Shown in pieces: positions 275-35,672 of a stretch of DNA of 36,835 nucleotides; position 1 is the first letter of the stretch; every line of letters starts with the position of its first letter. Origin of the DNA: Dunaliella salina (Eukaryota; Chlorophyta; Chlorophyceae; Chlamydomonadales; Dunaliellaceae); assembly GCA_002284615.2 (NCBI GenBank), contig MU069565.1, positions 274,158 to 310,992 of the forward strand, in the 5' to 3' direction. Both the position numbers and the translations under genes were made by a program. The notes under the pieces were generated by a model that had not been told where the DNA came from, did no database searches, and saw nothing but the letters and a program-made list of their open reading frames with translations.

Positions 275-342
275 CTACAGCTTCGTGACAGGGGGGGAGC
301 TGTGGGTCTGCCTCGCTCGCCGTTTCAGTTCCATGTCAGCAG
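275..342 (-). CDS. Exon 24, terminal exon with stop
   Basis: 68 nt: ADMELKRRARQTHSS then PPVTKL and TAG at 275-277. Acceptor GAATCTGCAG|CT. Phase 1 entry gives a split Ala codon with exon 23. The basic C-terminus contrasts with the preceding Pro-rich tail. A TGTAA signal follows about 170 nt downstream. The call rests on phase, stop and signal only, with no homology. Confidence 0.65.
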
Positions 343-3150
343 CTGCAGATTCAAAAAGGATGAATGCCTACATTAAACCTTAACACATTCGGCAGCAAGG
401 ACGAATGTCTGTATCAAGCCTAGAAACATATCCTCCGGCAGAGCAAAGCGCAGTGAGCCTAAACATACTGCCAAAATACACACCCATATGGGTGTGAGGC
501 ACATCTGCCAATTGGGCCGAGAAACACTTCTGCTAAAGGGGCTGTGATACACACACACATCCACTGAGTGGGCTGTGAAACGCATGTGTTGAGTGGGCTG
601 GAGGGATGATGGGGGCACACATTTGTGTGGGTATCAAACATGAGGTTGGCGAAGAGTGAGGACAGTTCATACGTTGTAGGAAACAGCGGTATGGTTAAAA
701 CTGCAAATGTGTATTTTCCATACTAAATTGAACAGACATAGGTTTGGCCAACTCCCTCTTTTTGCACGTACTTAGAAGTGTTATACCTGGCTTCATGCGG
801 CAAATGTATGGAAATATTAGCACTGAATGTATGGGCACGCGGTAACTGGCATACAGAACTAGCTAACCCTAGACGGAGATACATGTGAGTCTGAATAGAA
901 AAGATCCAAACGGCACAAATATGAATACTGTTATGGCAAGTGCTAAAGATTGAACAGCTGCATGCTTGGATACACTGCACCCTTGGATACTCTTGGATAC
1001 ACTGCACCCTTGGATACTCTTGGATACACTGCACTCTTGGCTACTGCACTACTCTTGGATACACCGCGCACTATGAGGCTGGACATCAAAACCCCCCGCA
1101 TCCCATCCCAGCACACACCAAAGATGGCATCACATCCAGCAAATTATTCACTCCGGGAACACCTCATCCACTGAACACCACAAACGCATGGGAGTGGCAC
1201 CACCCAACCGGCACTACAGGAGCTTTTTGGCGCTGCATCCCTGCGCACACCACAGATGGAATCACATCCAGCAAACACCAACATCGATGCCTGTGAGTGG
1301 CATCATCCAACTGGCATCACAGGAGCTTTTCGGCACTGCATTTCTGTGCACGCCACGGATGGTATCAAATTCAGTTAACACCACGCCTGCCTGTGACTGG
1401 CATCACCCTTCTGCCAATAGAGGAGCTTTGGCACTGCATTTCAGCACACACCACAGATGGTATTACATCCAGCAAACACCACGGGCGCAACATTTCAGCG
1501 CACACATTAGATGGTGTCACATCCAGCAAACACCACAGATGCCTGTGGGTGGCATCACCACTCCAGCACTATGAGAGCTTTGGCACTGCGTTTCAGTGCA
1601 CTGCACACCACAGATGGTATTACATCCAGCAAACACCACAGGCGCAACAGTCCAGCGCACACATTAGATGGTGTCACATCCAGCAAACACCACAGATGCC
1701 TGTGAGTGGCATCACCACTCCAGCACTACGAGAGCTTTGGCACTGCATTTCAGTGCACACAACAGGTGGTTTCACATCCACAGCAATCACCACAGACGCA
1801 TCATTTCAGCACACACATTAGATGGTGTCAAATCCAGCAAACACCATAGATGCCTGTGAGTGGCATCACCACTCCAGCACTACGAGAGCTTTGGCACTGC
1901 GTTTCAGTGCACACCACAGATGGTATCACATCCACAGCAATCACAACAGGCACAACATTTCAGCACACACATTAGATGGCGTCAAATCCAGCAAACACCA
2001 TAGATGCCTGTGAGTGGCGTCACCACTCCAGCACTACGAGAGCTTGGGCACTGCGTTTCAGTGCACACCACAGATGGTATCATATCCACAGCAATCACAA
2101 CAGGCGCAACATTTCAGCGCACACAATAGATGGTGTCACATCCAGCAAACACCACAGATGCCTGTGAGTGGTGTCACCCTTCTGACATTACGGAAACTTT
2201 GGCGCAGCATTCCAGCGCACACAACAGGTGGTATCACGTCCACAGCAATCACCACAGATGCCTGCACTCAGGAATGGCATGATCCCACTGACACCACGCG
2301 CGTTGTGCTTCCCAGCTGCACTCTCCACACCTGCACCCAAGCTCCGCGGGAGGGGTGGCAGTGAGGGTGCCTTGGTTGGGTTGCCTGCCACAGCAGCACC
2401 TGGTACCGGTGGGTCAGCGCCCCCAGCACCCCATGGGGGATCAGCAGTGGCCACTGGGAGGGGGTGTGGTGGCATCGGTGGCTGAGGGAGGGGTTCGAGA
2501 GTTTGGGGTGAGGATCTGGATCCGGGGGGAGATGGCGCTGCTGCTGATGGGAGGGAGGATGGGGAGGGGCCTGGCAGTAAAGGCTCAAGGATGTGGGGAG
2601 AGGACAGCAGTGGGGGCAGGCGGATGTGTTGGGGGGCTGTTGTTGGAGGTGCAGAGTCGGGCTGGGACGAGGACAAGCCGTGTGAGATGCTGCGTCCAGG
2701 CATGATGGAAGAGTGTGGGTCTGGCTTGGAGTGGGGAGAGACGGGAGGGGGCTCAGAAGCATGTGGTGGATGTGGCAGTGGAAGAGGAAGGGGTTCAGAA
2801 GCGTGTGGTGGATGCGGCGGTGGAAGAGGAGAGGGCAGAGGGGCTGATGCATGGGCATCAGCACGAGCAGGTGAGGAGGTGGGTCGTGGAGGCGGGGGTT
2901 GAGGTGGGCTGAAGTCGCTACCAAGTGGGGCAGGCCCTCTGGAAGCCTCTTGAGGTCCAACAGGGGGTGACAGCTCGTGCGCTGCTCCGCCAGAAAAATC
3001 CTGTGAGTCTGCAGCAACGGGATGATCCAGGCCAGGGTGGCTTGGTGGGCGTTGGGTCTGTAGTGTGGGATGGCCACTGGTGGAAGGCGCAGAAGCGGAA
3101 CTCGCGACAGATGGGAGCTTCTGCTGCGCAAAGCTGGGTTGAGGGTCCAA

Positions 3151-3186
<36 letters not shown>

Positions 3187-6100
3187 TTGTTGGTCAGGCG
3201 GGGCAGCACCGGCTTGCAGTGATGTTGGTTTGGATGCTTCAGCGAAGGACACGGCCGCAGATGAACCCTGCTCTACGCTTTCATGAGTGGCGGGAGCAGC
3301 AGCGCCGACAAGGGGAGCAGCAGCAGCCTCACCAGGATGGGCCTGGCCATCAGAACAGGCGTGCGCAAGCAGTGCTGTTGATGCAGGCTGTGTTGCTGAT
3401 GCAAGCTGTATTGTTGATGCAGGCTGTGTTGTTGATGCAGGCTGTGAGAGCAGAGGTGATTTTGGGGCCTGTGGTTCTGGCACAGATTCTTGGACCTGGA
3501 CGTCTGTGTTGGGGGCTGTTGGGGAGGGTGCTGGCGGCTGGGACAACCGGGGCGTCTGTGATGAGTCCGCCCCTGGAGCCACTATCGGGAAGGATGGGCC
3601 GCTGCTGTGTGTGGGGGACTGGTATACAGACACTGCATCAGGTTGTGGTGCCGACACTGCCTCAGGCTGCTGTGCAGCCACTGCATCAGGTTGCGGTGCT
3701 GACGCTCCTGCAGGCTGCTGTGCAGCCACTGCATCAGGCTGGCGTGCTTGCACTGCATCAGGTTGCGGTGCTGAAGCTGCATAAGGCTGTTGTGCTGACA
3801 CTGCCCCAGGCTGTGTTGCTGACACAGCTTCAGGCTGGTGTGCTGACGCTCCTTCCTCTCTGGCTCCGCCAGGCTGGTGTGTTGACCTTGCCGCGGTCTG
3901 TGGTGCTGAAACCTCATCAGGCTGGCGCGCTGGTGCTCCTGCAGGCTGCATTGCTGCCACTGCATCAGGCTGGTGTGCTGACATTGTCGCAGGCGGGTGT
4001 GCTGACACCGTATCAGGCTGGTGTGCTGACGCTCCTGCAGGCTGCTGCGCTGCCACTGCATCAGGATGAGTTGCCTCTGGCGGTCCCAGATCGCGCGCCA
4101 TTGGCTCCCCAAATGCCACTTCTGACTCACTCGGCTGCAGATGGGGTGGTGCTGGAGAGTTTGCCAGGGATGGCGGTGCCCCTTGTGGGAGAGCAGGCAA
4201 GGGGGTGGGCTGGGGGGCCTGTGATGGGTGTTGTGGGGTTGTGATGGGGTCTGGATGGGGGGGCTGTGATGGGTGCAGTGGGGGCTGTGACGGGTGCTGA
4301 TGAGGCTGAGGGAGCCGTGACGGCTGCTGTGGGTCTGTGACAGGTTGTGACTGTGGGGGCTGTGACGGGTGCTGATCGGGCTGAGAGGGGGGTGGCAGGT
4401 GCTGTTTGATGCCGTCAGCATCCTTGGCTCCCTGTTGTGTATGTCCCTGCACAACCTGCGGGCATAGCATTGGTAGCAGCAGGGATGGGTAATACGTGAA
4501 ACACGTATGTACGCGTACGGCTCAAGTCGGCAAAAATACGCGTACGGCTCAGATGGCTGTTCTGCAGACGTGAGAAGTACGTGGGTGGGCCAGGGGCATG
4601 CGGGCCCGCCCGGACACCTCAGAACCCATTGCTGTCCGCTTCCTTACGATTTTAAGACATAAATAAAGATGTTCACTGGAAGTCGGCTTCAACTCAGCCT
4701 TCACTGGTCTGTTTGCCAGCTCTACTCTACAGCCTCTTCCTCTTCACTCCAGTCCCCCCCACTGCTGGACCCCTCTTCCTGCAGCTGCTGCTCCTGCTCC
4801 TCTTACGGCACAGGCACCCAGGGCTGAGCCTCCCCTCCCTGCTCCAGCTGCCGCATGCGCTTGAGCAAGCGCAATTGCCAACTTGCAAGTTGCAGTAGAG
4901 CCACACCAAGTCAGTGGCACAGCTTGTATCCTAGCTTCTTCCCTTTCCCTTCTTCAGGAGAGAACTCAATGTGTGATGAGGGGAGGGGGGAGAGAGCTTG
5001 CATGGGAGGTGGTTGGGGGGTGGTTGGGACCCCCCCTGAGGGTCCCTCCCTGCCAAACCCCTCCCTCCCAAAAATGGCACGTAAAATACGCGTTCGTACG
5101 CGTCATACGCGTATTTTACGCGTACGTACGCGTACGGCACCTCTCCAACCCGCGTATTACCCATCCCTGGGTAGCAGCAATCAAAAAAGCTCCCCTATGA
5201 TACGTTGTGCATAGCATAGGTAGCTGCAGTTGCAAAGCTCCGCCATGATACGTTGTGATGAGGACTTCTCACCGCAACCACTGCTCGGCCAGAGTTCACA
5301 GCTGCAATCACAAAGCAGAACTGGAAAGCAACGTGATGTGCACATCCTCACAAATTTTGAGGAACATGTCAAAAGTCCCATGGAATCAAGTTTTAGGTGC
5401 GGGGCGTGTTGGGGGACAAAACAACAAGGTACTTGCAAGGCACATATAGCAATTGACTCCTGCTTCAAGTTTCTGCAATAATCTGTGCACGCCCTGATTC
5501 TAAGCATGCTAGTGGAGCTGCAGGCTTCCACTGCATGTACATGCGTCCAAGCAACCATAGCACCCTCCATGTTGGAGAACCAGACAAATCCTACACTATA
5601 AAAAAATTCACAAATAAACGTGCACATAATACTAACTCTTTATTAAATAGTTTTAACTTTAAATTCAACCTCGCCCAAACCCCGTTATCTTTGTTGTGAC
5701 AACAAAGACATCATGCACACCCAAAGCAAGAATCAACAATGCAAGACACCCTGGGCCTTGCCGTTTAAGAACTTAGGGTCAGCTGCAGGTGCACAGCTGC
5801 ACCATGCCTCTTCCAGAAGCACCCAGAAAAGGAAAAGAAGCCGCAGCACACCTGCTGCTGCAGGTCCATAGCCGCAGGAGCACCATGCACGGACCCTCCT
5901 CCGGACTTTGATGATTTCGGTGACGAGCCCTCCAACTCGCCATCCTCATCTTCTTCCGGCAGCGTCTTGAGCCCATGGTGCTGCTGTTGCTGCTGACGCA
6001 TCTTGGCAGCGTGAAAGCGCGCCTGTCGCTGGCGCCAGACACCCTGCAATAGCCACAGGTATATGTCATACAGAATGAATAGAATGGATCTAGACAAGGA

Positions 6101-15100: not shown

Positions 15101-15499
15101 CGGGCACCTCTACATACAAACGCGGGCACCTCTACATACAAATGTGGGCACCTCTACATACAAATGCGGGCACCTGCACACTTCAACAACATGCCAATCA
15201 GCCTGAGACCATGGAGTTAGTGCACCACGCCAATGCCGAGCATTTGGTATGGACAGAACAGTGCATAGAGGAGCCCACTGCCCCCTAAAAGATCCTCCAC
15301 AAGTGCCTACCATCTTTTCGCAGCTCTTGCCACCAGCTTTTACACAATTACAGCTTGGTAGCGAGAGCTGGGACAATAATAAGCGCACAAGAAGGAACCC
15401 CTATTGCCCACAACATGTTAAGTGACCTGCATGCACTACCCCATGGATCCACCAACTGTTTAATGATCAACAGAAAGATGTATACACCAATGACATTCT

Positions 15500-15575
<76 letters not shown>

Positions 15576-16686
15576 ACACACATGCACACACGCACACACA
15601 TACACACATGCACACACATACATATATGCACACATTCCTGCCAAAAAGTTCTTCATGTGTAATATTTTCTGGTGTTGTGCATCACAAGGAGACCTTCAAG
15701 TCGCACACGAGAACAAACAAGGGTGCATGCTTCAGCTATCAGGCTACCAAGCACAGATCTGTTTCACTTACTGCCTAATTTGAACATTGTGTATTGTGGC
15801 CTGGATGAAAAACTTCTCCGAAATGGACGTCACATTCTCCACCTGGGGAATGAAACAACAAAACAGCAGCGACTGATCACCAGACAGCAAAACACGTGAG
15901 TTGCACCACCATATTTGGAGGGTGAGAAAAGCTTGCAAGTGCATCATGCAAGTATGATATTTGGAGAGTGAGAAAAGCTTGCAAGTGTATCATACAAGTT
16001 TGTGTGCTTGGCCACAAATTCTGCATCAAAAGAGAATGGAATCAGGGCACATTTATTTCAAGCATGGCTGTCTTCGGAAGCCCTGCTCCACTTCAGTCCT
16101 TGAAGGAAAAAAAAGCATATCCATGCAGAAAGGCAATGGAATAAAGGTAGCAGGACAGGAATGCACGAGGCAGCAAAGAAAATAGACATGCAGACGTGCT
16201 GGTTGGCAGACAGCAAAGTAGGGAAAAAGGAATGCAGGAAGGTAGGAACTTTGCAAGCCTCAGCAGCAGGTGATGCTACATAGGACGAAGAGATGATTCC
16301 AATGTTTCTAATGGGAACTGCCTCATTTTCAAGTGAATTCATAGAAAGCTCCTTAGGGTGCAGGGTTTAGGTTGGGGTTTAGGGCTTTAGGGTCAGGGTT
16401 TAGGGTTTGGGGTTTAGGGACACTTTTGTACTCAGAATCACTTGAGGCAGATGCCCCACCTGCACCTCAGCTGTGGGCACATTTCTCTCAAAGGCAGCAG
16501 CCAGCTGCACGAAAGAGAGCTGCGCCTCAGCCTTGGCTTCTTCTGATGTCTCAGGGGCAAGCATCTGGTCCATATAGGCGGGGAGCGCATCCACAGGCAC
16601 CTGAGAAGGTGGTGTATAACGTGCAATGTGCTTGTGCTTGCAAGAACACGCACGCACACATGTGTGTGTGTGTGTGTGCGTGCGTG

Positions 16687-16766
<80 letters not shown>

Positions 16767-26690: not shown

Positions 26691-26746
<56 letters not shown>

Positions 26747-29700: not shown

Positions 29701-32700
29701 GCTAGGGTTAGGGTTTAGGGTTAGCCTAAACCCTAAGAGCTTTATGGGCTGAACTGGCATAGAAAGGCTGAAAGGGTCTCAAGTTGCGTTTTCTTGCAAC
29801 CAAGGCCCTCAATTTTTTTGTGTCTAAGGGCCCTCAGTTTTATGCAGGCAAGAGGACACAATGCTGTCAATATTGACCATCCAAGGCGGTGGCTGGCTCC
29901 TTGTTAAGAGGATTATACAACATTAACAGAACTAGTAAAATTGCCTGTTGTCTTGCAATTATCATAGTGGCTATGGAGCAGCCGAGACGTGAGTTTTGCA
30001 AGGATGGACATCGCTGCAAAGAGGCTTCACACAAAGGCTGGCAGGCGGCCAGAATAAGGCACAACCTTCACTTGCCTTCAAGCCTCGGTGGCGTCCCGCC
30101 GACTAGCAAGATGTGACTGGGCACAGCCTGTCTGTATTCAAATGTAAGCCTGAAAGCGCCACATGCAAACCCTGGCAATCTATGAAAGTGGCCCAATGTG
30201 AGGGCTAGCAAGGAGTACCTGTCGCTATACCCAAGTATTTACTCAAGTATGCAAGTACGGATATTGAACCCTAACCCTAGCAAGCCATAAACACCATGAC
30301 CAGACCCAAATGGGCCTCATGCAAGGGCTTGCGACTCCTTAAAAAGGCACAATCCTGTGTCATCAGCTGTTTGTTTGGCTGGAAAGCATGAACAGGCCTG
30401 ACCCTGTGGTCAACAGAAACCTTTTGACTGAATAGGGCTGTGAGCAAGGGCTGGCATGCCCCGGGAAGGCCCTCATGCAGAAGCAAGGCGCCATGAATGC
30501 CTGGAAGGGCCGTGGTACCGCTGTTAGCTTTGCAGGTTACATGGTGTATTAAAAGGGAACAACAAGGGAATATGCAGAGTTTGAGATCAGTCTTTCATCT
30601 CACACTGAAATTCCAAGTTGACCAGTTTAACACCCTAACAATTTGCCCCCTTCTTCCAGGCAGGCAGCCTCCTTGCTACTCAACAGAGCCTGAAAGGGCC
30701 TCAAGTGAAGGATGGCAAGCCATGACAACAAACAATCTCTGTGCCGCCAACCACAACAAAGCACAACCCTTGTGCCGTCAACCATGACAATGCACAACCC
30801 CTGTGCAAGCCACCCCGATGTGAGCCACGACAACGCGCAGCCCCTGTGCCATAAACGACAACAATGTACGACCCTTGTGCCGTCAACCATGGCAACCTGT
30901 GCATGCCACCCCAATGTAAGCCACAAGTTGCACATCCTCTGTGCCGTCAACAACAACAAAGCACAACCCTTGTGCCGTCAACCATGACAATACACAACCC
31001 CTGTGCAAGCCACCCTGATGTGAGCCAAGACAACGCACAACCCCTGTGCCATAAACGACAACAATGTACGACCCTTGTGCCGTCAACCATGGCAACCTGT
31101 GCAAGCCACCCCAACGTAAGCCACAAGTTGCACATCCTCTGTGCCGTCAACAACAACAAAGCACGACCCTTGTGCCGTCAACCATGACAATGCACAACCC
31201 CTATACAAGCCACCCCGATGTGAGCCACAATAACGCGCAACCCCTGTGCTGTCAACTCACTGTGGTGTCCCCTTGGCTGGGCTGCTGCTAGCCTTGGAGG
31301 AGTTGGACTCGGGGTCGGCCCCGTTATCTTCTGCACACAATCACAAGTACAGGTGATCCTGTTACAGAGTTGCTTTGTAAGAGTGATAAAGGTGCCTTCC
31401 TTCCTAAGGGCAGTCCTGTGCATAGGACTGCATCCTCAGAGTGGTAAAGGTGCCTTTATCCATTATCCAAGATAGGGCCTAACAATGTCTGACTTCGTGA
31501 TGGAAAAAGTTCCTGCGATCTTGTGGATGAATTTTAGGGTTAGAAACCCCAAAAAGTATGCTTGGAATGCCAAGAACCTGGTGGATGGTTCAGGAACTCC
31601 TGGTACCCAAGGAAAGCTTAACCAAAGCTGCCTCCGAAAGCCTGTGCACAACAGCAGAAGCAAATAGCATATATGCAAACAAACAAAGTAATGCTAGACA
31701 TGGATTGGTTCGGTCCAGGATCTCTTCCTCGTCATCCTGAGCAAACTCAAGAAAAGCGGATTGCATGCACCCAAGCATGAAGTTGGCCCACTAATCTATG
31801 TAAGTGATCGCACCCACACCACTAATTGACAGACGAACATTACTTGCCACATGAACATCACTTGCCACAAAATCAATAGCCACAACAACATCACTTGCCT
31901 GTCCAGCATAACCACCACTTGCCGCGTATACATTAAAAGGAGCTGATTGTTGGGAACATGGACACCACAGAGGGTCTCCATCCTGGCTTCGATTGAAACA
32001 GCAAATCAATACAAGCGGGTGCACACCTTCAATTTGCACTGTCAGGTTGGAGTGCACATGCTCCTTCGGGGGCAGGGTGCTGCGCTGAGGAAAAGTGGAG
32101 GTCTTAGAGCCTGCGCAAGAGTTGCCAAAATTGAAGAACCTGGAGGCTAGAAGGACAGCCAGATTCATGTGGGAAACGTGTGCACAGTCATGACAACTAT
32201 GGATGTGGTGTGCATCTAGATGCTCATCTGGATCGTGACATTTCTGGATTGTTGTGTATCCGGATGCACACCCATATCATGACAGTTCTGGACTTGGTAT
32301 GTGAGCTGCTTGGGCATGTAAAATTACAGATCAGATCAGAATTTTGCCATAATTTACCGATGAACAGGCGTTGCTCACATTACCAGCAGCACTGCCTTTT
32401 CAGTAATTTCACACACTCTCTGCCATACACATTGAACGTTGCTATGCAAGCCCCTGCAGACGCCCATGCAATTGGCAAACACAAGGCTCAGACTACTCGA
32501 CTTACTTGGAGGAGATGGCTGAGGCTCGGGCTTTGTGATCCTGGCCGGAGGTGCCAAGTCCATGCTGGCCCCTGCTCATAGCAGGTGAACAAATCAAGTC
32601 GTTCTATGCCTGCAGCAGAACTCAGGTTCTTGAAGGCGAGTGAGAAGTGTGACCTGCCCTTTTCCTTTCTTGCCTTTCACGAGCAATCCGGAACAGAACA

Positions 32701-35672
32701 AGAGTCCTGCCAAAAACATCCTACATGGTCTGTGCTCTTTCACCAGTGCTTCGCTGGCACCTGCTCATAGCCAGAGAGCCAATCAAGTCATTCAGTCCTA
32801 TGCTTAGCAGTAGAACTTGGGTTCTCAGAGGTGAGTGAGAAATGTGATCTGATCTTTTTCTTTTTTGCCTTCCACGAGCCGGAATAGAACAAGAGGCTTG
32901 GCCTGCCCAAAAACTTCCTGCATGGTGTGTGTTACTTCACCTGCTTTCAATAGCACCTGGACATTGAATGGAAATGCAACAGAAGCAAGGCTTGGCAGGC
33001 TTTCTGTCTGGTCTGTGGTGTTGCAAACGCTCTTTGCAGGGAAATCAAGGAGAGGAGGGCACAAAAAGGGTATGAATCAAGCAACAGGCTTTTCCTGCCA
33101 CGAGCTTCAAGGTCTGTGTTTGTGTATTTCACCTGCTCTCCCCTGGCACCTGGCAAAGCAAGGAAATAGAGAGAGGTAAGGCTTGGCAGGCTTTCTGCCT
33201 GGCAGGCTTTCTGTCTGTGGTGTCTCAACTGCGCTTTGCTGGCGCATGCACTCTGTGCAAAGGAATCAAGAAGAGAACTCAGCAGAATTTCTTGCCAAGC
33301 CTGTGTTGCTTCACTGTCGCTTCGCTGGCACATGGGGGCTGGTGGCAAGTAGAACAAACCTACAGCAAAAGATGAACAGAGTGAGTCAGGGCCAGGGCCA
33401 TTGCCAAGGCACTTGCCTCATTGTTAGCCTATGCCTTGCCTAGCAATTCATGCACAATCCATGATCCAAACATTCTGACAATGACAGAAGCACGCTGCAC
33501 TGAACTTTCTTGAAGTCGTCACATTGATTGCTTTTCCCCTCCACTTTTTTAAAAATTGCTAAGGGCCGATTTGCTCAAACCTTGCCAATCATTGCACTGC
33601 CTAAGCGTGCCAAACAATGCTTCTTTACAGGTAAAAAGTTGATCACACAGTTTTGATGTGTGTAAGATCAGAACTTTCAAAATTTTGTGCTTTAATGTGC
33701 TCTCTGGTGAGGAATGTGCTTTCTGGTGAGGAGCGTGCTTTCTGGTGAAAATGTGCTTGAATGGTGAGGAATGTGCTTGAATGTGCTTTCTGGTGAGAAA
33801 TGAGAACATATGCATTTATTCCTGTGAGCTTATGAAGACATCTGTGCTGACGTGCACATCAGTGACGAGCCCCCATGTCACAGTGATGCTGACACCACCC
33901 CTGTTCCTCAGTGTTGTAATTCTGAGGAAGATCCATGCAAAAACAAACTATTGCACAGACATAAATGCATGTGGGTACATGCACATGTATGTGCACAAGC
34001 ATGCACACATGCTTGCTTGCCTGTCTGCAAAGTCATGTACATGCACGTGCATGCGTTTGTGTGTACGGCCACACATCCTACTCCAGCTCCTCATCACGTA
34101 AATTTGTCACCTCACACATACCCTAAAACTCACACACATCCCACTTGAGCAGTGATCCAGCTCCACCTTGCCTCAATCCGTAAGCACTGCGTACCCTCAC
34201 ATACTCAAAACATTCCACCTGAACTTTTCTACCTTGCCTCTGCCTGTAAGCAGACAAAAAGCACCCAGTCTCACATGTATTCCACCCGCAGTGTCCTTGC
34301 TTGCCCCCGTTGATCCCCGCACTCATACCCTACTCACACGTAGATGCGCACCTTACTTGAACTGCTCCTCTTCTCTCAACGCTCAACCATGCCACCATGT
34401 GGGAGCGCCGCACTGGGCATTTAGCATTGATGCCTCTGTCGTTCACCTTATACAAACCCTACCTGAGCTGCTCAACCTTGCCTATGTGTGTGCATGCCTA
34501 TGAGTAACGTATGAGTGTGTGACTGCACTCATACCCTACTCACACAACAATACACACCCTACGTGAGCTGATCAACACACAACAGCACACACCCTAGCTG
34601 AGCTGATCAACCTTGCCTCTCTGTATGAGCGCCGCATTGAGCATTCAGCACTGATGCCACTGTCAGTCACCTCTCACATGGCCTTCGCAAACAAGCCTAC
34701 CTGAGCAGCTCAACCAAGCCACCATGTGTGAGCGCAGCATCGAGTATCCAGCATTGATACCACTGTCTGTCACCTCTCACGTGACCTTCGCACACAGACC
34801 CTTCCTGAGCTGCTCAACCCTAACCAGTCTGTCTGAGCGGCGTATTGAGCATTCAGCGTTGATGCCTCTGTCTGTCGCCTGTCAAATAGATTTTTAACAC
34901 AAACCCCCCTTAGCTGCTCAACCTTGCCCCGCCTTTGAGCGCCGCATTGAGCATTCAGCATTGATGCCTCTGTCTGTCACCTATCAAAAAAAATTTCCAC
35001 ACAAACCCCCCTTAGCTGCTCAACCTTGCCCCGCCTTAGAGCACCGCATTGAGCATTCAGCAACGATGTCTATGTCTAACCAAACTGTTGTGGTTTTGAG
35101 GTTTACATGGCTGGCTGACGCTGGCGAGGAGGGCGAGATGAGGGAATAACTCCTTTACATGTGTATTCGATATTAATTAAAAAGACAAAACTCAAGATCA
35201 GAGGCAAGGTTCACACTTTCTCACAGAAATACTGTTCCAACTGATTTAAGTTTATAACAGTTCGGCCCCCTCTCTCAAGGCTGCGTCCTTGCAGTCAAAC
35301 AAAAACTCTAAGTGAGAAAATTGAACAGAAATGAGTGAAGTCACGCAGGGAAGAAAAATGAACCAGGCAAATGTTTTTCCTTGTCCTTAGGCAAGCAACA
35401 GAGAAAGTCTGTCGCCTGCCAAATAATTCTTTCACACAACCCCCCCTTAGCTGCTCAACCTTGCCTGGCCTTCAAGCGCCGCATTGAGCATTCAGCATTG
35501 ATGCCTCTGTCTGCCGCCTCTCACATCACCCTTCTCACACAAACACTCACCTGTGCTGCTCAGCCTTGCATTTGTTTGTGAGCGCCGCACTGCGCGTTCA
35601 GCATTGACGCCACTGTAATTGCCAGACATGCTCATGCGCTTTGGAGATCCGCTGCCGTAGCCGAGGCTAGGC
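275..35672 (-). CDS. Single 24-exon gene for a large uncharacterised algal protein (spliced; N-terminus possibly incomplete)
   Basis: The exons, in transcript order, are listed separately below. All have AG acceptors and GT donors, and reading phase is kept across every junction except exon 13/14. The joined product is about 1,528 residues. Residues 1-118 are basic and Ser/Pro-rich. Residues 119-722 are mostly helical, with conserved-looking blocks such as VPDIVFFHFMNKYGQRK, FAKFLSEEWDLTTFVDFL and IYSTYLMGLVQRHSRV. Residues 723-786 are an acidic/Gln/Ser linker, 787-1506 are low-complexity Pro/Gln/Ala/His, and the last 21 residues are basic. No signal peptide, membrane segment or catalytic motif is visible. 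I do not recognise the family. The block around exons 8-9 weakly recalls long helical or EF-hand-linked flagellar proteins of algae, which I cannot show from sequence alone. Introns make up about 87% of the span. Confidence 0.82.
343..2294 (-). repeat. Intron 23 with a 154-bp tandem array at its donor end
   Basis: From about 1100 to 2294 the sequence is a tandem array with units of about 154 bp (repeat starts such as 1668, 1822, 1976), built from smaller related blocks (GATGGTATCACATCCA, AGCAAACACCA, CTCCAGCACTACGAGAGC). The unit nearest exon 23 carries the donor GTGTCAGTGGGATCATGCC, and the distal units hold degenerate versions of it. At 965-1072 there is a separate 27-bp repeat (TTGGATACACTGCACCC). 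The part 343-940 shows no gene. Confidence 0.8.
2295..4455 (-). CDS. Exon 23, large low-complexity Pro/Gln/Ala/His tail
   Basis: 2,161 nt, 720 codons without a stop. Acceptor ATGCCCGCAG|GTTGTG, donor GCGTG|GTGTCAG leaving phase 1. In order it holds a Pro/Gln/His segment with repeated QPSQPP (about 4400-4230), a decapeptide-like repeat of the SAPQPDAVSA type (about 4090-3600), Ser/Gln-Thr repeats (QPASTIQLAS, about 3430-3360), a Gln run of about 14 at 3151-3192, then His/Pro-rich repeats (PHPPHASEP). Predicted disordered. The antisense strand is also largely open because the codon repeats are biased, but it has no splice or phase support. Confidence 0.82.
4480..5169 (-). mobile_element. Non-autonomous hAT element with perfect 8-bp TSD
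   Basis: Termini are CAGGGATGGGTAATACG and its exact inverse (17-bp TIRs). They are flanked by the direct duplication GGTAGCAG (4472-4479 and 5170-5177). TIRs starting CAGGG and an 8-bp TSD are hallmarks of the hAT superfamily. Several TACGCGTACG motifs lie just inside both ends, as subterminal transposase-binding repeats usually do. The minus-strand stretch 4920-4722 reads like the end of a hAT transposase dimerisation region (LVWLYCNL, then RLLKRMRQLEQ in another frame, then an acidic tail and stop), so this looks like a deletion derivative. It lies in intron 22, 24 bp upstream of the exon 23 acceptor. Confidence 0.85.
4722..4920 (-). pseudogene. Remnant of hAT transposase C-terminus
   Basis: Inside the 690-bp element, the minus strand encodes LVWLYCNL followed, after a frame change, by RLLKRMRQLEQ, then a Glu/Gln/Ser-rich tail ending EEEEAVE and TAG at 4722-4724. 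hAT transposases typically end with a similar hydrophobic-Asn-Leu-Arg motif and an acidic tail. The frame is broken and the rest of the transposase is absent, so it is non-functional. Assignment is by motif memory only. Confidence 0.45.
5178..5851 (-). other. Intron 22, rest
   Basis: No gene seen. Right of the hAT element are two copies of a 50-bp segment (ATGATACGTTGTG-containing, about 5195-5260), then unique AT-rich sequence. Confidence 0.6.
5852..6043 (-). CDS. Exon 22
   Basis: 192 nt, 64 codons, phase 0 to 0. Starts GVWRQRQARFHAAKMR, then a short Gln run, an acidic stretch (LPEEDEDGELEG), a Ser/Gly segment, and ends with Gln. Acceptor CTATTGCAG|GGTGTC, donor CAGCAG|GTGTGC. It marks the change from the helical core to the disordered tail. 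Its acceptor region is the seed of the largest array in the window (6044-8620). Confidence 0.88.
6044..8620 (-). repeat. Array of about 22 degenerate copies of the exon 22 acceptor junction
   Basis: The units are about 109-125 bp. Each contains a version of the intron end plus exon start found at 6043 (plus strand CCAGACGCCCTGCAATAGCC, i.e. TATTGCAG|GGCGTCTGG on the transcript), plus matches to the following codons. The copy at 6384-6412 still reads VWRQPQARFDAAK, against VWRQRQARFHAAK in the exon. Copies nearest exon 22 (6162, 6271) match best; those beyond 7600 are strongly decayed. The array occupies most of intron 21 and abuts the real acceptor. Confidence 0.85.
8700..8850. repeat. Three copies of a 55-bp repeat
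   Basis: GTCTTGAGCACGAnCATG followed by a CTGCGGTC block recurs three times with a spacing of about 55 bp within intron 21. I could not relate it to a splice junction. The rest of the intron (8850-9302) holds a (TTC)n tract at about 9024-9067 and nothing else recognised. Confidence 0.7.
9303..9450 (-). CDS. Exon 21
   Basis: 148 nt, 49 codons: FLMAKAGEALKDRAARLP and, later, GAVCALRGDFEQALQAHAAC. Acceptor CATGCAG|G, donor CTGCAG|GTGCGAG. The second half has a TPR-like helix hairpin pattern (small/large spacing, G-D-F-E-Q-A), but a single partial repeat does not establish a TPR domain. About four more degenerate copies of its first 75 nt plus the acceptor lie upstream in intron 20. Confidence 0.85.
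9451..9990 (-). repeat. Tandem copies of the exon 21 acceptor junction
   Basis: Four to five units of about 119 bp, each carrying CATGCAAATTCCTGATGG-like acceptor sequence and about 75 nt matching the exon 21 start (GGCGAGGCCCTCAAGGAC on the transcript). The three units nearest the exon are nearly identical; the last, at about 9930, is decayed. The rest of intron 20 (9990-10501) shows no gene. Confidence 0.85.
10502..10614 (-). CDS. Exon 20
   Basis: 113 nt, 37 codons: VTLLVEGVLKIQPQDTNDLE then AAVCRLEDIAILLLHKE. Acceptor GACTGCAG|GTGACC, donor GAAGA|GTGAGTTG. Phase 0 in, phase 2 out; the split codon with exon 21 gives Glu. Confidence 0.9.
11477..11679 (-). repeat. Two 109-bp copies of the exon 19 end plus donor
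   Basis: The block GCCAGCCAGAAGGTGCAGG (plus strand) starts at 11695 in the exon and again at 11586 and 11477, giving exactly 109-bp spacing. Each copy includes the codons for AYLHLLAG and the ATGAAG|GTGAAG donor. The two intronic copies are nearly identical to each other, so the duplication is recent. Both are in intron 19, directly after the real donor. The rest of intron 19 (10615-11476) has no gene. Confidence 0.9.
11680..11763 (-). CDS. Exon 19
   Basis: 84 nt, 28 codons, phase 0 to 0: AAAVSNKVEGDAKFRAY then LHLLAGVINMK. Acceptor CACGCAG|GCTGCT, donor ATGAAG|GTAAAA. Two near-perfect copies of its 3' half and donor lie 109 and 218 bp downstream, and degenerate copies of its acceptor lie upstream. 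Confidence 0.88.
11764..12010 (-). repeat. Two degenerate copies of the exon 19 acceptor
   Basis: On the transcript, CATGCAG followed by an AGCAGCA- and GGGGATGCC-containing segment occurs at about 11910 and again at about 12000, aligned to the CACGCAG|GCTGCT start of exon 19 and the later GAGGGCGACGC. Divergence is high. Confidence 0.6.
12270..12900. repeat. About 17 copies of a 34-bp minisatellite in intron 18
   Basis: The core CATGACTGAGGGCAGACAC recurs roughly every 33-36 bp, with flanks such as TTCAATCACATTC. It is translated as repeats like LPSVMNVV in one minus frame, which is coincidental. No relation to a nearby exon was found. Confidence 0.85.
13290..13440. repeat. TTGGTCACTGGTCATTGG minisatellite
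   Basis: Short units of GGTCATT and GGTCACA form two larger copies of about 76 bp (13300-13370 and 13376-13445). They are nearly identical and end in CAGTCATGTTGTGATATT. Confidence 0.9.
13590..13903 (-). repeat. Array of exon 18 end plus donor
   Basis: The transcript strand carries repeated GGGGATGTGCTTCTCAGGGAC, the exon codons SGDVLLRD, interspersed with GAAGACAGTGA runs that match the exon codons EDS. About six partial copies abut the real donor at 13904. Confidence 0.85.
13904..14014 (-). CDS. Exon 18
   Basis: 111 nt, 37 codons, phase 0 to 0: IYSTYLMGLVQRHSRVIMPH, then LRKWLVEDSGDVLLRDQ. Acceptor TATTTGCAG|ATC, donor GACCAG|GTGGGTTC. Clear amphipathic helix content. The last 30 nt (codons for EDSGDVLLRD) seed the tandem array that fills the first 300 nt of the next intron. 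Confidence 0.9.
14015..14360 (-). other. Intron 17
   Basis: 346 bp between exons 17 and 18, both phase 0 at this junction. No tandem array and no gene seen, which makes it a useful contrast to its neighbours. Confidence 0.7.
14361..14421 (-). CDS. Exon 17
   Basis: 61 nt, 20 codons: HIKMNVLEPAPMTKEQTEGE. Acceptor CTTTTTTAG|G, donor GGAGAG|GTGCGT. Phase 2 in, phase 0 out. Its acceptor region is degenerately repeated in the adjoining part of intron 16 (14422-14660). Confidence 0.82.
14422..14660 (-). repeat. Degenerate copies of the exon 17 acceptor region
   Basis: About four units of about 62 bp with CTTGATGTGCATGAGAAAGCA (plus strand) match the acceptor region CTTGATGTGCCTAAAAAAGCA. The AG is changed in most copies. 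Confidence 0.7.
14761..14963. mobile_element. hAT-like MITE, about 203 bp
   Basis: Left end CAAGGGATGGGTC and right end GACCCATCCCTG are inverted copies apart from one base indel, and they resemble the TIRs of the 690-bp hAT element. The flanking 8-mers GAGCTTTC and GAATTTTC agree at 6 of 8 positions, consistent with an old target duplication. The interior is AT-rich with an imperfect palindrome (GGCATGAACGAGGCATG). It has no coding capacity and lies in intron 16. Confidence 0.6.
15060..15175. repeat. Five copies of a 24-bp minisatellite
   Basis: Units of GCACCTCTACATACAAATG plus CGGG repeat five times head to tail in intron 16. Confidence 0.9.
15504..15620. repeat. (CA)n microsatellite
   Basis: About 117 bp of CA dinucleotides, slightly interrupted by TA and TG towards the end. 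It is transcribed as (UG)n in intron 16. Confidence 0.95.
15772..15842 (-). CDS. Exon 16
   Basis: 71 nt, 23 codons: VENVTSISEKFFIQATIHN then VQIR. Acceptor CATTCCCCAG|GTGGAG, consensus donor GGCA|GTAAGT. The phase 2 end joins exon 17 to give Gln. This donor was preferred over a weak GC site at 15800 because it restores phase exactly. Confidence 0.85.
15905..16000. repeat. 52-bp direct duplication in intron 15
   Basis: GAGAGTGAGAAAAGCTTGCA followed by a GTATCAT variant occurs twice with a spacing of about 52 bp. Confidence 0.85.
16355..16425. repeat. Interstitial TTTAGGG-type telomeric repeats
   Basis: Irregular GGGTTTAGG/GGGTTTAGGG units lie just downstream of the exon 15 donor. The TTTAGGG type is that of plants and several green algae. 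Confidence 0.85.
16460..16600 (-). CDS. Exon 15
   Basis: 141 nt, 47 codons, phase 0 to 0: VPVDALPAYMDQMLAPETSE, then EAKAEAQLSFVQLAAAFERN and VPTAEVQ. Acceptor CTTCTCAG|GTGCC, donor GTGCAG|GTGGGG; a donor 6 nt upstream (GAG|GTGCAG) is also in phase. Ala/Glu-rich helical segment. It lies between complementary (CA)n and (TG)n intron tracts. Confidence 0.88.
16661..16764. repeat. (TG)n microsatellite
   Basis: About 104 bp of TG dinucleotides with a few CG changes, 60 bp from the exon 15 acceptor. It is transcribed as (CA)n in intron 14. Confidence 0.95.
17595..17806 (-). repeat. 58-bp array seeded by the exon 14 donor
   Basis: Three units of about 58 bp each carry GTGATTACTGGCACCTGATC on the transcript strand, which is exactly the start of intron 14. 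Only intron sequence is copied, not exon codons. The rest of intron 14 (16765-17590) has no gene; 17110-17190 holds a short direct repeat (CCCTTGTGAGCTTTAGCC type). Confidence 0.8.
17807..17909 (-). CDS. Exon 14
   Basis: 103 nt, 34 codons: FLRLLCTELQRINSFIGG then LAEEKFARMDNQKTGQ. Acceptor CTTTTCCAG|G after a strong pyrimidine tract; donor GGGCAG|GTGATT. Ends in phase 0, matching exon 15. A near copy of its first 34 nt lies upstream at about 18124-18160, with Phe changed to Tyr. Confidence 0.82.
17920..18052. repeat. Homopurine tract in intron 13
   Basis: About 130 bp of GGAGAAAGGAAAAGG repeats on the plus strand. On the transcript it is a long polypyrimidine tract leading into the exon 14 acceptor. 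Confidence 0.85.
18060..18215 (-). repeat. Duplication involving the exon 13 end and exon 14 start
   Basis: Two copies of a block (GGAAAATGC ... ATCCATACCACTTTCATG) are separated by a near copy of exon 14's first 34 nt (GTACCTGAGGCTTATGTGC). The real exon 14 start follows after the homopurine tract. Confidence 0.8.
18161..18278 (-). CDS. Exon 13 (3' end uncertain)
   Basis: The 5' part is convincing: acceptor GAGGAAG|T in phase with exon 12 (split codon Leu), then INAAVLPTIEMATIRAAFAG and SENAKE. The 3' boundary is unclear. The only nearby GT (AAG|GTACCT, used here) leaves phase 0, while exon 14 needs phase 2. The sequence around it has been duplicated with exon 14's start (18060-18215), so the donor may be a decayed or non-GT site, or exon 14 may begin at a later AG. 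Confidence 0.5.
18650..19060 (-). repeat. Degenerate copies of the exon 12 end plus donor
   Basis: GCGAGGCATCTGTGGAC and GGCGAGGCACATTG (plus strand) match the exon 12 block GCGAGGCATCTTGAAC. GATCCCACTCTCAGGTATC-type blocks match the donor GATCCTCACTCACAGATAG. About five copies of about 60-75 bp fill the donor end of intron 12. 18279-18650 shows no gene. Confidence 0.7.
19061..19155 (-). CDS. Exon 12
   Basis: 95 nt, 31 codons: VDAATVERARREKQAG then PNDYFPDRLFKMPRY. Acceptor TTCGCACAG|GTCGAT, donor TATCT|GTGAGTGAGG. Phase 0 in, phase 2 out. Degenerate copies of its acceptor side (19300-19790) and donor side (18650-19060) flank it. Confidence 0.85.
19300..19790 (-). repeat. Tandem copies of the exon 12 acceptor junction
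   Basis: About four units of about 118 bp. Each has CACGTTCCACAGAAGCATCA followed by GGACACTGCAAGAG, aligned with CACGCTCCACAGTGGCAGCA followed by TCGACCTGTGCGAAG at the exon 12 start. Copies still read DASVERV, against DAATVER in the exon. The array lies in intron 11 next to the acceptor. Confidence 0.8.
20240..20320. repeat. Three copies of a 27-bp repeat in intron 11
   Basis: GGTCTATTTGCTGTGCAAGC plus TAA repeats three times exactly. The rest of the intron (19800-20240, 20320-20614) has nothing recognised. Confidence 0.95.
20615..20705 (-). CDS. Exon 11
   Basis: 91 nt, 30 codons: CMYVADTVIGFCSQEVRERF, then HTLCFEQCQE, with five cysteines. Acceptor TTTCTGTCCAG|G has a good pyrimidine tract; donor GAG|GTAGGTAAA. 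The frame is open upstream of the acceptor (IDACIHFLSR), so a longer exon starting at 20741 is possible but breaks phase with exon 10. Confidence 0.85.
20995..21119 (-). CDS. Exon 10
   Basis: 125 nt, 41 codons (contains ALHKESFELLDAMTVQPSR and YPKDPGKDEAYPWACFH). Acceptor ATCAAAG|GCACTG, donor CACAA|GTGAGTACC. Phase 0 in, phase 2 out; the split codon with exon 11 gives Lys. Includes an Asp/Pro/Lys-rich loop. Confidence 0.85.
21120..21872 (-). other. Intron 9
   Basis: No gene seen. It contains short AATGAGTCA/AATGTCAAA repeats at 21230-21330. Confidence 0.6.
21873..21955 (-). CDS. Exon 9
   Basis: 83 nt, 27 codons: FAKFLSEEWDLTTFVDFL followed by TAQSMLLQ. Acceptor GCCTGCAG|AAAAT, donor CTGCAG|GTGAGTATT. 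Phase 1 in, phase 0 out. With exon 8 it forms a helix-turn-helix block of alternating hydrophobic and acidic residues, probably a folded domain. Confidence 0.9.
22560..23330 (-). mobile_element. Possible decayed hAT-like stretch in intron 8
   Basis: The minus frame at 22920-22639 reads WFKGVEDNAKYILGHVISKG then NSKISSH, spaced rather like a hAT zf-BED domain that has lost its cysteines. The block at 23205-23275 (GGGATGGTTGG, then CCCTCCCTCCTAAAAAA) resembles the same-side interior of the 690-bp hAT element. No TIR or TSD was found. Weak call. Confidence 0.25.
23870..24663 (-). repeat. Array of exon 8 end plus donor
   Basis: The plus strand repeats CTCACCTAGGCGCTGGTCTTG then TGTGCGATGCAA about ten times. 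On the transcript each copy reads as codons for LHRTQDQRL plus the donor TAG|GTGAGTG. Spacing is irregular (about 60-120 bp). Copies near 24664 match the exon best, and many keep the GTGAG. No gene lies elsewhere in intron 8 (21956-23870) beyond the possible hAT relic. Confidence 0.88.
24664..24837 (-). CDS. Exon 8
   Basis: 174 nt, 57 full codons, the most protein-like exon (contains RTEVLRKQTVPDIVFFHFM, NKYGQRKVASKYVGSLVNSL and ends HRTQDQRL). Acceptor CATGCAG|GTGAAATG, donor CCTAG|GTGAGTGCG. The split codon with exon 9 gives Glu, making a continuous DQRLENFAKFLSEEW. The last 27 nt plus the donor are repeated many times in the downstream intron (23870-24663). Confidence 0.92.
24838..25281 (-). 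other. Intron 7
   Basis: No gene. It has direct repeats of GCATGGGGCAAGCA (25075-25215) and of a CCTTAAATTTAAGGCAAAA-type block near 24960-25020. Confidence 0.6.
25282..25424 (-). CDS. Exon 7
   Basis: 143 nt, 47 full codons (contains EAADNAVEKLGNMPKNVRLV and GWLLAVVEAVYRE). Acceptor CCTTGCAG|GGAGG, donor GGAGG|GTGGGT. Phase 2 in, phase 1 out; the split codon with exon 8 gives Gly. The amphipathic helix pattern and lack of low complexity mark this as conserved-core sequence. Confidence 0.87.
26593..26692 (-). repeat. Decayed copy of the exon 6 3' part
   Basis: The transcript ATGTTTGCTTCACCTGAGG ... GAGAGAGGGCGAGGG aligns with the exon 6 sequence ATGCTTGCTTCAGCTGAGG ... GAGGGCAAGGGCGG. It lies just beyond the TG tract that follows the real donor. 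The rest of intron 6 (25425-26590) has a duplicated block of about 150 bp (GCGGAGAGCAGG at 25727 and 25883) and no gene. Confidence 0.75.
26693..26777. repeat. (CA)n microsatellite containing an assembly gap
   Basis: CA dinucleotides with five Ns at 26747-26751, so the true length is unknown. It begins at the exon 6 donor on the transcript side. Confidence 0.95.
26781..26932 (-). CDS. Exon 6
   Basis: 152 nt, about 50 codons of Ala/Glu-rich helix (SAIKSAIRSTPEGRESVEAA and LASAEAYHAWEELLEGK). Acceptor CATGCAG|AGTGCC. The donor GAATT|GTATGTGTG runs straight into a TG microsatellite. A second donor 21 nt upstream (GG|GTGGGT, exon end 26802) keeps the same phase and may be the one used. Decayed copies of this exon flank it on both sides: 26593-26692, and 26990-27180. 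Confidence 0.75.
26990..27180 (-). repeat. Two decayed copies of the exon 6 acceptor side
   Basis: The copy at 27025-27090 (plus strand ACTCCTGCCCTCTGGGGTGC then TCCTGATGGCTGACTT) closely matches exon 6's start; the second at 27130-27180 is weaker. The CATGCAG|AGTGCCA acceptor is retained in the first. Confidence 0.8.
27340..27800. repeat. 27-bp minisatellite, about 17 copies
   Basis: Units of the type GACACAAATTGGGTCCCTA plus TTGTGTTGCACCCA vary between copies in intron 5. No clear link to the exon 5 or 6 junctions was seen. Confidence 0.85.
27889..27942 (-). CDS. Exon 5
   Basis: 54 nt, phase 0 to phase 0, encoding NSRRKIGPLETPNPTTPQ. Acceptor GCTTACAG|AAT, donor CCACAG|GTAGTA. The opposite strand of the same block is also open with plausible splice sites (27821-27943 plus). 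The minus-strand reading is preferred because it keeps phase with exons 4 and 6. Confidence 0.5.
28225..28705. repeat. 205-bp dimeric tandem repeat in intron 4
   Basis: ACAAAGCACAGGACGCAGCAC starts at 28301, 28401, 28506 and 28606, so 100- and 105-bp monomers alternate as a 205-bp dimer. Alternate monomers carry GCTGATGGTCTGAAAGCAGG or GCTAATGGTCAAAAAGCAAA. Confidence 0.92.
28760..28802 (-). CDS. Exon 4
   Basis: 43 nt encoding a short Lys/Gln/Glu helix (LKGEKKQVEKQVQA). Acceptor GCTCAG|C, donor AAGCT|GTGTGAGC. An alternative donor 2 nt further (GTGAGC) would leave phase 2. Chosen because both phases then match exons 3 and 5. A longer version starting at an upstream AG is open but breaks the phase with exon 3. 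Confidence 0.55.
29670..29745. repeat. Interstitial telomere-type repeats, head to head
   Basis: AGGGTTAGGGTTTAGGGTTA then CCTAAACCCTAAGAG shows TTTAGGG units meeting inverted units at about 29723. Another CCCTAACCCTA lies at 30268-30280. The rest of intron 3 (28803-29670, 29745-30710) is repeat-rich (GAGTTGCACACAGGCAAG blocks) without a gene. Confidence 0.8.
30713..31260 (-). repeat. 200-bp higher-order array seeded by the exon 3 donor
   Basis: GTGCCGTCAACCATGACAAT and related blocks repeat every 35-50 bp, grouped in 200-bp units (30864 and 31064 start equivalent frames). On the transcript, GTTGACGGCACAAGGGTTGT matches the start of intron 3 (GTTGACAGCACAGGGGTTGC). Confidence 0.82.
31261..31330 (-). 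CDS. Exon 3
   Basis: 70 nt encoding an acidic then Ser-rich disordered piece (DNGADPESNSSKASSSPAKG). Acceptor TGTGCAG|AAGAT, donor CACCACA|GTGAGT. Phase 1 in, phase 2 out; the split codon with exon 4 gives His. The intron sequence just after the donor is the seed of the 200-bp array downstream. Confidence 0.75.
31331..32505 (-). other. Intron 2
   Basis: No supported exon. It contains short repeats (CACTTGCCACA, 31845-31925; GGATGTGGTGTGCATCTAGA-type, 32190-32270) and a small open frame at 31699-31790 discussed among the rejected items. Confidence 0.6.
32506..32571 (-). CDS. Exon 2
   Basis: 66 nt encoding a Pro-rich segment (ASMDLAPPARITKPEPQPSP). Acceptor GAGCAG|GGGCC, consensus donor CCAA|GTAAGT. 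It enters in phase 1 from exon 1 and leaves in phase 1; the split codon with exon 3 gives Lys. An in-frame TGA sits just upstream of the acceptor, so the ATG at 32561-32563 is an alternative start if exon 1 is not used. Degenerate acceptor copies fill the adjacent intron (32572-33350). Confidence 0.75.
32572..33350 (-). repeat. Four units of a 185-bp array derived from the exon 2 acceptor
   Basis: CACCTGCTCATAGC-like blocks recur at about 32571, 32760, 32938, 33129 and 33311. On the transcript the second copy reads GCTATGAGCAG|GTGCCAGCG, against GCTATGAGCAG|GGGCCAGCA at exon 2. Confidence 0.8.
33690..33800. repeat. GTGCTTTCTGGTGAGGA minisatellite
   Basis: About five variable copies of GTGCTTTCTGGTGAGGAAT in intron 1. 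33350-33690 and 33800-34150 show no gene. Confidence 0.85.
34150..35550 (-). repeat. Array of exon 1 end plus donor, about 103-bp period
   Basis: GAGCGCCGCATTGAGCATTC, followed by AGCATTGATGCC, occurs about seven times (34408, 34627, 34730, 34835, 34937, 35040, 35477). It matches exon 1 at 35580 (GAGCGCCGCACTGCGCGTTC, AGCATTGACGCC), the codons for GVNAERAVRRS. Several spacings are 102-105 bp. A GCTGCTCAACCTTGCC block matches the exon end (codons ARLSS). 35150-35380 interrupts the array with unrelated AT-rich sequence. Confidence 0.88.
35551..35672 (-). CDS. Exon 1 (first exon recognised)
   Basis: 122 nt, about 40 codons, rich in Ser, Arg and Gly (contains GYGSGSPKRMSMSGNYSG and NAERAVRRSQTNARLSS). 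The acceptor used is ACTCAG|G and the donor is ACAG|GTGAGTG, leaving phase 1. The phase joins exactly to exon 2 (G + GG = Gly). The frame stays open upstream to an ATG at 35768-35770, so this could be the first coding exon with a start there, or at the internal Met codons of KRMSM. I cannot decide. Junction-derived repeats lie downstream in intron 1. Confidence 0.7.

Follow-up and report, generated by a model that had tools for sequence, protein, structure and literature searches.

Tandem arrays in Dunaliella salina introns that copy the adjacent splice junction, and a possible bias of their founding towards exon edges

The gene and its intron arrays

The window analysed here is a stretch of 36,835 nucleotides from the green alga Dunaliella salina (contig MU069565.1, positions 274,158-310,992). 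Its minus strand carries a gene of 21 exons, running from position 35672 to 5852, that splice-phase testing joined into a stop-free frame of 789 residues. The gene model is strongly backed because 20 successive introns are all phase-consistent. The 21-exon frame is followed by a long terminal exon, x, rich in proline and glutamine, with an acceptor at 4455 and a 3' end that is not fixed. Between window positions 3619 and 4074 this last exon contains in-frame repeats of 24, 48 and 72 bp, all multiples of three. Searches with the gene product gave no Pfam match above the curated cut-off, one chance-level match in the PDB and none there in a second search, and no match in a large protein set. The exons, in window coordinates, are the following.

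Exon a, 35551..35672, minus strand, phase-consistent open frame
Exon b, 32506..32571, minus strand, phase-consistent open frame
Exon c, 32027..32110, minus strand, open frame; without a junction copy
Exon d, 31261..31330, minus strand, phase-consistent open frame
Exon e, 27889..28000, minus strand, phase-consistent open frame
Exon f, 26781..26932, minus strand, phase-consistent open frame
Exon g, 25282..25424, minus strand, phase-consistent open frame
Exon h, 24664..24837, minus strand, phase-consistent open frame
Exon i, 21873..21955, minus strand, open frame; single donor copy at ~21688-21784
Exon j, 20995..21146, minus strand, phase-consistent open frame
Exon k, 20615..20705, minus strand, phase-consistent open frame
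Exon m, 19061..19155, minus strand, open frame; single donor-side copy at ~18851-18982
Exon n, 17807..17909, minus strand, open frame; single donor copy at ~17663-17767
Exon o, 16460..16600, minus strand, phase-consistent open frame
Exon p, 15772..15842, minus strand, phase-consistent open frame
Exon q, 14361..14421, minus strand, phase-consistent open frame
Exon r, 13904..14014, minus strand, phase-consistent open frame
Exon s, 11680..11763, minus strand, phase-consistent open frame
Exon u, 10502..10614, minus strand, phase-consistent open frame
Exon v, 9303..9450, minus strand, phase-consistent open frame
Exon w, 5852..6043, minus strand, phase-consistent open frame
Last exon x, 2297..4455, minus strand, acceptor at 4455; 3' end not fixed

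A long (TG)n run, with a 5-base assembly gap in it, begins at the donor picked for exon f (window 26692-26781).

The introns are filled to a large extent with tandem arrays. Array bases account for 9,473 of the 28,849 intron bp of the gene, which bears out the view, put forward in a preliminary description of this DNA, that a recurring local duplication lengthens the introns. The richest arrays belong to exon w (17 copies, 2.4 kb), exon a (8 copies) and exon h (7 copies).

34381..35616, minus strand, array of exon a end plus donor; unit ~102, 8 junction-spanning copies
32564..33242, minus strand, array contacting the exon b acceptor; repeat calls and junction copies
30718..31256, minus strand, array from the exon d donor; dimeric period 200 at 94% versus 95 at 65%
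28215..28701, minus strand, intronic array without contact with a known exon; dimeric period 205 at 95% versus 100 at 84%
27365..27676, minus strand, intronic array without contact with a known exon; repeat call
26851..27104, minus strand, array of exon f acceptor plus exon start; repeat calls and junction copies
23870..24711, minus strand, array of exon h end plus donor; 7 spanning copies
19206..19762, minus strand, array upstream of the exon m acceptor; likeness to acceptor plus exon start seen by eye, below threshold
14412..14629, minus strand, array contacting the exon q acceptor; repeat calls and junction copies
13584..13937, minus strand, array of exon r end plus donor; repeat calls and junction copies
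12311..12896, minus strand, intronic array without contact with a known exon; repeat call
11459..11727, minus strand, array of exon s end plus donor; 94-96% identity
9373..9999, minus strand, array of exon v acceptor plus exon start; unit 127
6015..8481, minus strand, array of exon w acceptor plus exon start; 17 spanning copies, unit ~108-122

Other repeats lie among these arrays. The array of exon a is interrupted by a 325-bp dispersed element (window ~35080-35410) with 90-94% identity to at least 39 copies elsewhere. A stretch at window ~22617-23264 has diverged matches (66-88%) at about 12 other genomic places and is perhaps an older dispersed element. An element of ~690 bp (window 4480-5169) adjoins the last exon upstream. 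It has perfect 17-bp terminal inverted repeats (CAGGGATGGGTAATACG), is bounded on both sides by an 8-bp direct repeat (CTGCTACC), and occurs at 39 or more other genomic places, two of them at 99% (39 of 1077 candidates were scored). It is presumably a non-autonomous element of the hAT type. Degenerate telomere-like repeats, which we take to be of the TTTAGGG type, are present within introns at window 16353-16419 and ~29690-29760, as a green lineage would suggest.

Copies of splice junctions, their spread and their fate

Junctions were tested with 70 bp from each side. A copy was accepted if it lay in the adjacent intron, extended at least 8 bp past the junction in either direction and scored at least 24. 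Such copies were found at 13 of the 43 window junctions, 8 of them donors (a, d, h, i, m, n, r, s) and 5 acceptors (b, f, q, v, w), with 48 copies within 3 kb at identities of 0.69-0.96. When the same junctions were matched with non-adjacent introns of the gene, five draws gave 1, 0, 1, 1 and 0 of 43. The copies are therefore local and specific, and the central claim of the preliminary description, that the intron arrays copy the adjacent splice junction, stands. Not all of its assignments to single exons were reproduced: exon c has no spanning copy, and for the last exon (its "exon 23") no donor could be placed.

The 285-Mb assembly (1403 contigs) was searched with segments of the window. The segment 5844-9999, containing the arrays of exons v and w, matched only itself. 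With 17700-24840 the other matches were dispersed elements outside the arrays and one pyrimidine tract; the arrays of exons h and m within this segment had no match elsewhere in the assembly. Of 462 candidates for 26800-35680, 40 were scored, and the matches listed were dominated by a single 325-bp element with 39 long copies; those listed for 4456-16000 were one dispersed element, the window itself being absent; the arrays in both segments are thereby poorly tested. The pyrimidine tract lies within the array interval called beside exon n. Introners, by which introns are lengthened or created, are intronic repeats dispersed across genes. The presence of one element in many genes was not seen for the arrays of v, w, h and m, the remaining arrays being poorly tested in this respect.

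Two further gene sets were assembled in which exons were defined from Pfam matches, independently of the repeats, with edges placed by splice-site scores. The kinesin set comprises 25 motor exons of 27 matches, two N-rich ones being excluded; 44 of its 50 junctions were tested, leaving out two low-score acceptors and four junctions with too little flank. The cyclase set comprises 17 exons in 15 loci from 30 matches, the other 13 not being included; 33 of its 34 junctions were tested, one acceptor being excluded on score. Junction-spanning copies were present at 14/44 kinesin and 8/33 cyclase junctions, or 35/120 over all sets. Edge totals vary from 116 to 124 between analyses, and two overlapping loci (L022, L035) were excluded from the founder-collapse and occupancy analyses described below. 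Local tandem repeats seem denser in the genic loci (31% in the window, 22% in the kinesin loci and 13% in the cyclase loci) than in flanks of dispersed elements (11%) and in pattern loci (7%), although these comparison loci are not known to be intergenic.

The direction of copying is clear in one kinesin locus, L056, where the translation of the copied exon end contains LAGSE, which we take to be a conserved kinesin motif, inside the Pfam match. The exon is thus the source, and the copies derive from it and not the reverse. The intron contains ten junction-spanning copies, five of which extend 57-58 bp into the exon.

The core AG or GT is retained in 90 of 116 copies, in agreement with the earlier suggestion that the arrays leave decoy splice sites, and 82 of the 116 retain the site together with a score of at least 3 on a matrix made from the window gene's own sites. 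Such retention would be expected if selection favoured extra junction copies for a role of their repeated splice signals in aiding or regulating splicing. Ranked among 40 dinucleotide positions for retention, the donor GT is 4th, which also leans that way, but the acceptor AG is just 13th, and copy-to-parent identity is near 0.8 over the exon part and the intron part alike. A selected function is thus considered very unlikely. Since GT and AG retention is unexceptional, the decoy sites look neither clearly preserved nor purged, and no clear constraint is seen. No signal of RNA structure was seen when part of the exon h array was folded (z -0.05).

The arrays had also been described as decaying with distance from the parent junction. 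This is true of the exon w array (Spearman -0.57, 17 copies). It is not a general trait: of 11 arrays with at least 4 copies (window, kinesin, cyclase), 7 lose identity with distance and 4 gain it, the mean Spearman being -0.13. Dimeric periods of 200 and 205 bp in window arrays, and one of 193 bp also detected, point to exchange of two-unit blocks.

Founding of arrays relative to exon edges

Measured over present-day intron positions, junctions are not significantly more copied than other points. The test that the preliminary description proposed would therefore, in its simple form, have given a negative result. Rotation of the gene under its exon skeleton gave 13.8 (sd 2.9) junctions with copies expected versus 13 observed, and random points with full-length targets gave 30.8 expected versus 35 observed over all sets. 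Blind array calls in the window spanned 9/43 junctions versus 12.8 expected, and 8 of 19 large window arrays contained a junction versus 6.9 expected (P 0.37). A first window test found a local copy at 57% of 500 random intron points, the corresponding counts being 9/22 for acceptors and 9/21 for donors. For the kinesin set the 14/44 junctions compare with 23% of random points, and for the cyclase set the 8/33 with 16%. Pooled, these two sets gave 22/77 versus 231/1200 (P 0.055), with the control biased downward by targets shortened at locus ends.

Distance profiles gave the same picture. Array coverage shows no trend over the first 1300 bp from the junction (124 junctions; near minus far +0.008, 95% -0.056 to 0.073), and inside exons it is 20%, 14% and 8% at 0-25, 25-50 and 50-75 bp. 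The raw frequency of copies in a distance series is flat at 0.29-0.35. The same series with a weight of 1/(1+n) on all points, junctions included, gave 0.117 at the junction and 0.151 at 600 bp, with no excess; this all-point series is not regarded as a sample of ancestral sites and was not counted.

Taken at face value, these controls fit a blind process of tandem duplication in which arrays arise anywhere in introns and a junction is copied only when a unit happens to cross an edge. The junction rotation, the random points with full-length targets and the flat coverage profile all agree with it, as does the pooled kinesin and cyclase comparison. Controls over present-day positions mislead, however, because of a length bias: array growth multiplies intron bases while the junction stays single. 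Since growth multiplies every intron base in an array, an intron base drawn at random today will probably fall inside one. The quantity to be compared is the frequency with which ancestral positions turned into founders, and the conclusion about exon edges hangs on this argument. Collapse of each array to its founder would then be the right null.

Tests at the level of arrays and founders gave a different result. First, array-level rotation in the window placed 11 of 20 arrays in contact with an exon versus 6.9 expected (P 0.011), an excess that is weaker at a stricter cut (9/18 versus 6.3, P 0.077). Array termini fell inside exons 11 times versus 2.7 by rotation, and no array contained a whole exon versus 4.5 expected. 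Second, when random points were weighted by 1/(1+copies) and searched on both sides, the expected frequencies were 0.168 for the window, 0.148 for the kinesin set and 0.094 for the cyclase set, compared with junction frequencies of 0.302, 0.318 and 0.242; pooled, 35 were observed versus 16.8 expected (P 1.4e-5). Third, in the founder collapse each blindly called array was reduced to one unit, and spanning of an edge required real repeat cover. By this measure 26 of 90 arrays span an exon edge versus 8.9 expected (2.9-fold, P 2e-7): 9/23 versus 3.4 in the window, 12/45 versus 3.5 in the kinesin set and 5/22 versus 2.0 in the cyclase set. The 26 arrays are split evenly between 13 acceptor and 13 donor edges. 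Trimming of the locus ends gave a ratio of 3.3-3.5. The GC content of founder units is 0.51-0.53, that of array-free intron 0.485, and this slight GC-richness may contribute to the edge excess.

Founder occupancy depends on distance from the edge. It is 23% at 0-60 bp versus 6% at 160-600 bp, or in finer steps 0.22-0.25 at 0-40 bp, 0.05 by 140 bp and 0.03-0.09 to 540 bp, climbing again to 0.09-0.10 at 540-600 bp; the intron mean is 0.07. The drop occurs within one unit length, which favours an anchor at the edge over an effect of the wider region. The near/far ratio is 4.0 (95% 2.1-6.2, loci resampled). It is 5.4 (2.7-12.0) for acceptors and 3.0 (1.0-5.7) for donors, with the donor lower bound at 1.0, and the three sets agree (window 5.6, kinesin 3.3, cyclase 3.3).

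In a simulation, founders were placed blindly, exons were shielded from mutation and the same pipeline was applied. The fold excess was 0.92 and the near/far ratio 0.84, and at an intron coverage of 0.35 the fraction of junctions spanned was 0.07; in the real data junction coverage is about equal to intron coverage. Together with the array-level rotation and the 2.9-fold founder excess across three gene sets, this makes blind duplication rather unlikely.

An excess of edge arrays could also reflect persistence rather than seeding. Founding would be even along the intron, and edge arrays would stay recognisable and keep growing as selection preserves the exon half of the parent. Several observations lean in this direction. 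Edge arrays are richer in copies than the others (median 3.7 versus 2.1, P 4e-4), the excess is large among arrays with 3 or more copies (15/33 edge-spanning versus 3.7) and largest among arrays below 80% identity (14/34 versus 3.7, 3.8-fold), and in donor copies the exon part is somewhat better preserved than the intron part. In the simulation, the fold was 1.16 at 1-10% divergence per copy, 1.26 at 10-20% and 1.62 at 18-30%; two-copy arrays gave 1.12 at 10-20% and 2.57 at 18-30%. The near/far ratio stayed at 1.0-1.15 across divergence classes, the one exception being 2.68 for two-copy arrays at the heaviest decay. Conservation of the exon half can thus inflate the signal of very old arrays, as the simulated excess reaches 1.6-2.6-fold under heavy decay. 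At 10-20% divergence per copy, however, the simulated bias is just 1.1-1.3-fold, and a 2.6-fold excess is still seen among arrays with at least 85% identity (7/32 versus 2.7, P 0.014). The small and youngest class, with at least 90% identity, gave 3/16 versus 1.3 (P 0.13), which is not significant. Persistence as the sole cause appears unlikely, a little more so than blind duplication; these results suggest that a seeding bias and better survival through the selection-kept exon half both contribute to the edge preference.

Arrays at exon edges are thus found at about three times the expectation for blind founding. Tandem duplications of ~100 bp have perhaps been founded over exon edges about 2-3 times more often than elsewhere in introns, and the earlier proposal of a process initiating at exon edges gains support once the length bias is removed. 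The favoured reading, to which a probability slightly above one half (about 0.53) is given from sequence comparison, is that exon edges seeded the duplications through replication slippage or unequal exchange.

Possible mechanism, known systems and significance

Edge seeding could proceed as follows. A unit of ~100 bp, made up of some tens of bp from the end of the exon together with the intron next to it, would be duplicated at the edge, with slippage or unequal exchange as the probable cause. Selection would keep intact only the copy that is fused to the rest of the exon, which by geometry is the end of the array. Arrays would abut the parent junction because the full exon can remain attached only to the terminal copy. 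The remaining copies would be removed along with the intron during splicing and would be expected to drift unconstrained. Further exchange of whole units, to which the dimeric periods point, would make the array grow and lengthen the intron. Growth would leave many intact-looking decoy AG and GT sites that the spliceosome would ignore by context, so that splicing is presumably correct despite them. Edges may be preferred because the conserved exon is a lasting anchor, or because the edge is fragile or structured.

The preliminary description knew of no described system of this kind. The structure itself has already been described, in amphioxus, as "mirages". Mirages are tandem repeats that cross exon-intron boundaries in the Adh3 and globin genes; many of their copies carry AG/GT, and regular splicing is undisturbed (PMC3087553). 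They occur also in the troponin C and PGBD5 genes (PMC3902484). Like the Dunaliella arrays, they span the boundary on its 5' or 3' side, with units of tens to ~160 bp. Features of mirages that recur here are boundary-spanning repeats (at 13/43, 14/44 and 8/33 junctions), location at both acceptor and donor edges (13 arrays each) and AG or GT in many but not all copies (90/116). Unlike the present arrays, mirages were reported from cephalochordates gene by gene, with splicing and allele length examined and with copy number differing between alleles or cells, whereas the Dunaliella data are the sequence of one assembly alone. The Dunaliella arrays differ in being present at 35/120 junctions and many loci, in being strongly degenerate and in having a founder excess measured at edges. 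What is new relative to mirages is therefore the density, the breadth and the measured founder excess. In a literature search that covered mostly open-access papers, no report of a founder excess at exon edges, nor of mirages at this density outside amphioxus, was found.

Two other kinds of repeat at intron borders are related. Tandem duplication is discussed as a route of intron gain in a review (PMC3443670). In the potato RdRp case (PMC4974935), a tandem duplication across an intron-exon boundary, creating splice-site copies much as here, made an intron. The arrays could by analogy mark such a route. In contrast to the potato case, the analysis identified no newly made intron; the two flanks of an intron, at its donor and at its acceptor, resemble each other in 0 of the 21 window-gene introns, and the array units include intron sequence. 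Intron gain is accordingly regarded as the least likely of the alternatives, hardly to be expected at all. Short direct repeats at intron borders (PMC11782384) likewise lie near splice sites; they are pairs of 4-30 bp flanking the intron and read as marks of insertion, whereas the repeats here are intronic arrays with units of ~100 bp.

There is also a lesson of method. A control that uses random intron points conceals an edge effect because arrays multiply intron bases and never junctions. Founder occupancy as a function of distance from the junction can be scored in any annotated long-read genome.

A broader reading, held slightly short of even odds on the sequence comparisons above, is that exon edges may be the birthplaces of intronic minisatellites in the Dunaliella salina genome. 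A standing process of edge-seeded duplication, with copies beside about 3 in 10 junctions, would drive intron growth and flood pre-mRNAs with near-perfect decoys that are ignored by context. If edge seeding is true, it would provide a natural assay of how the spliceosome chooses among near-identical sites. If edges do seed tandem duplications, then intron length, decoy sites and the raw material for new introns would have one source.
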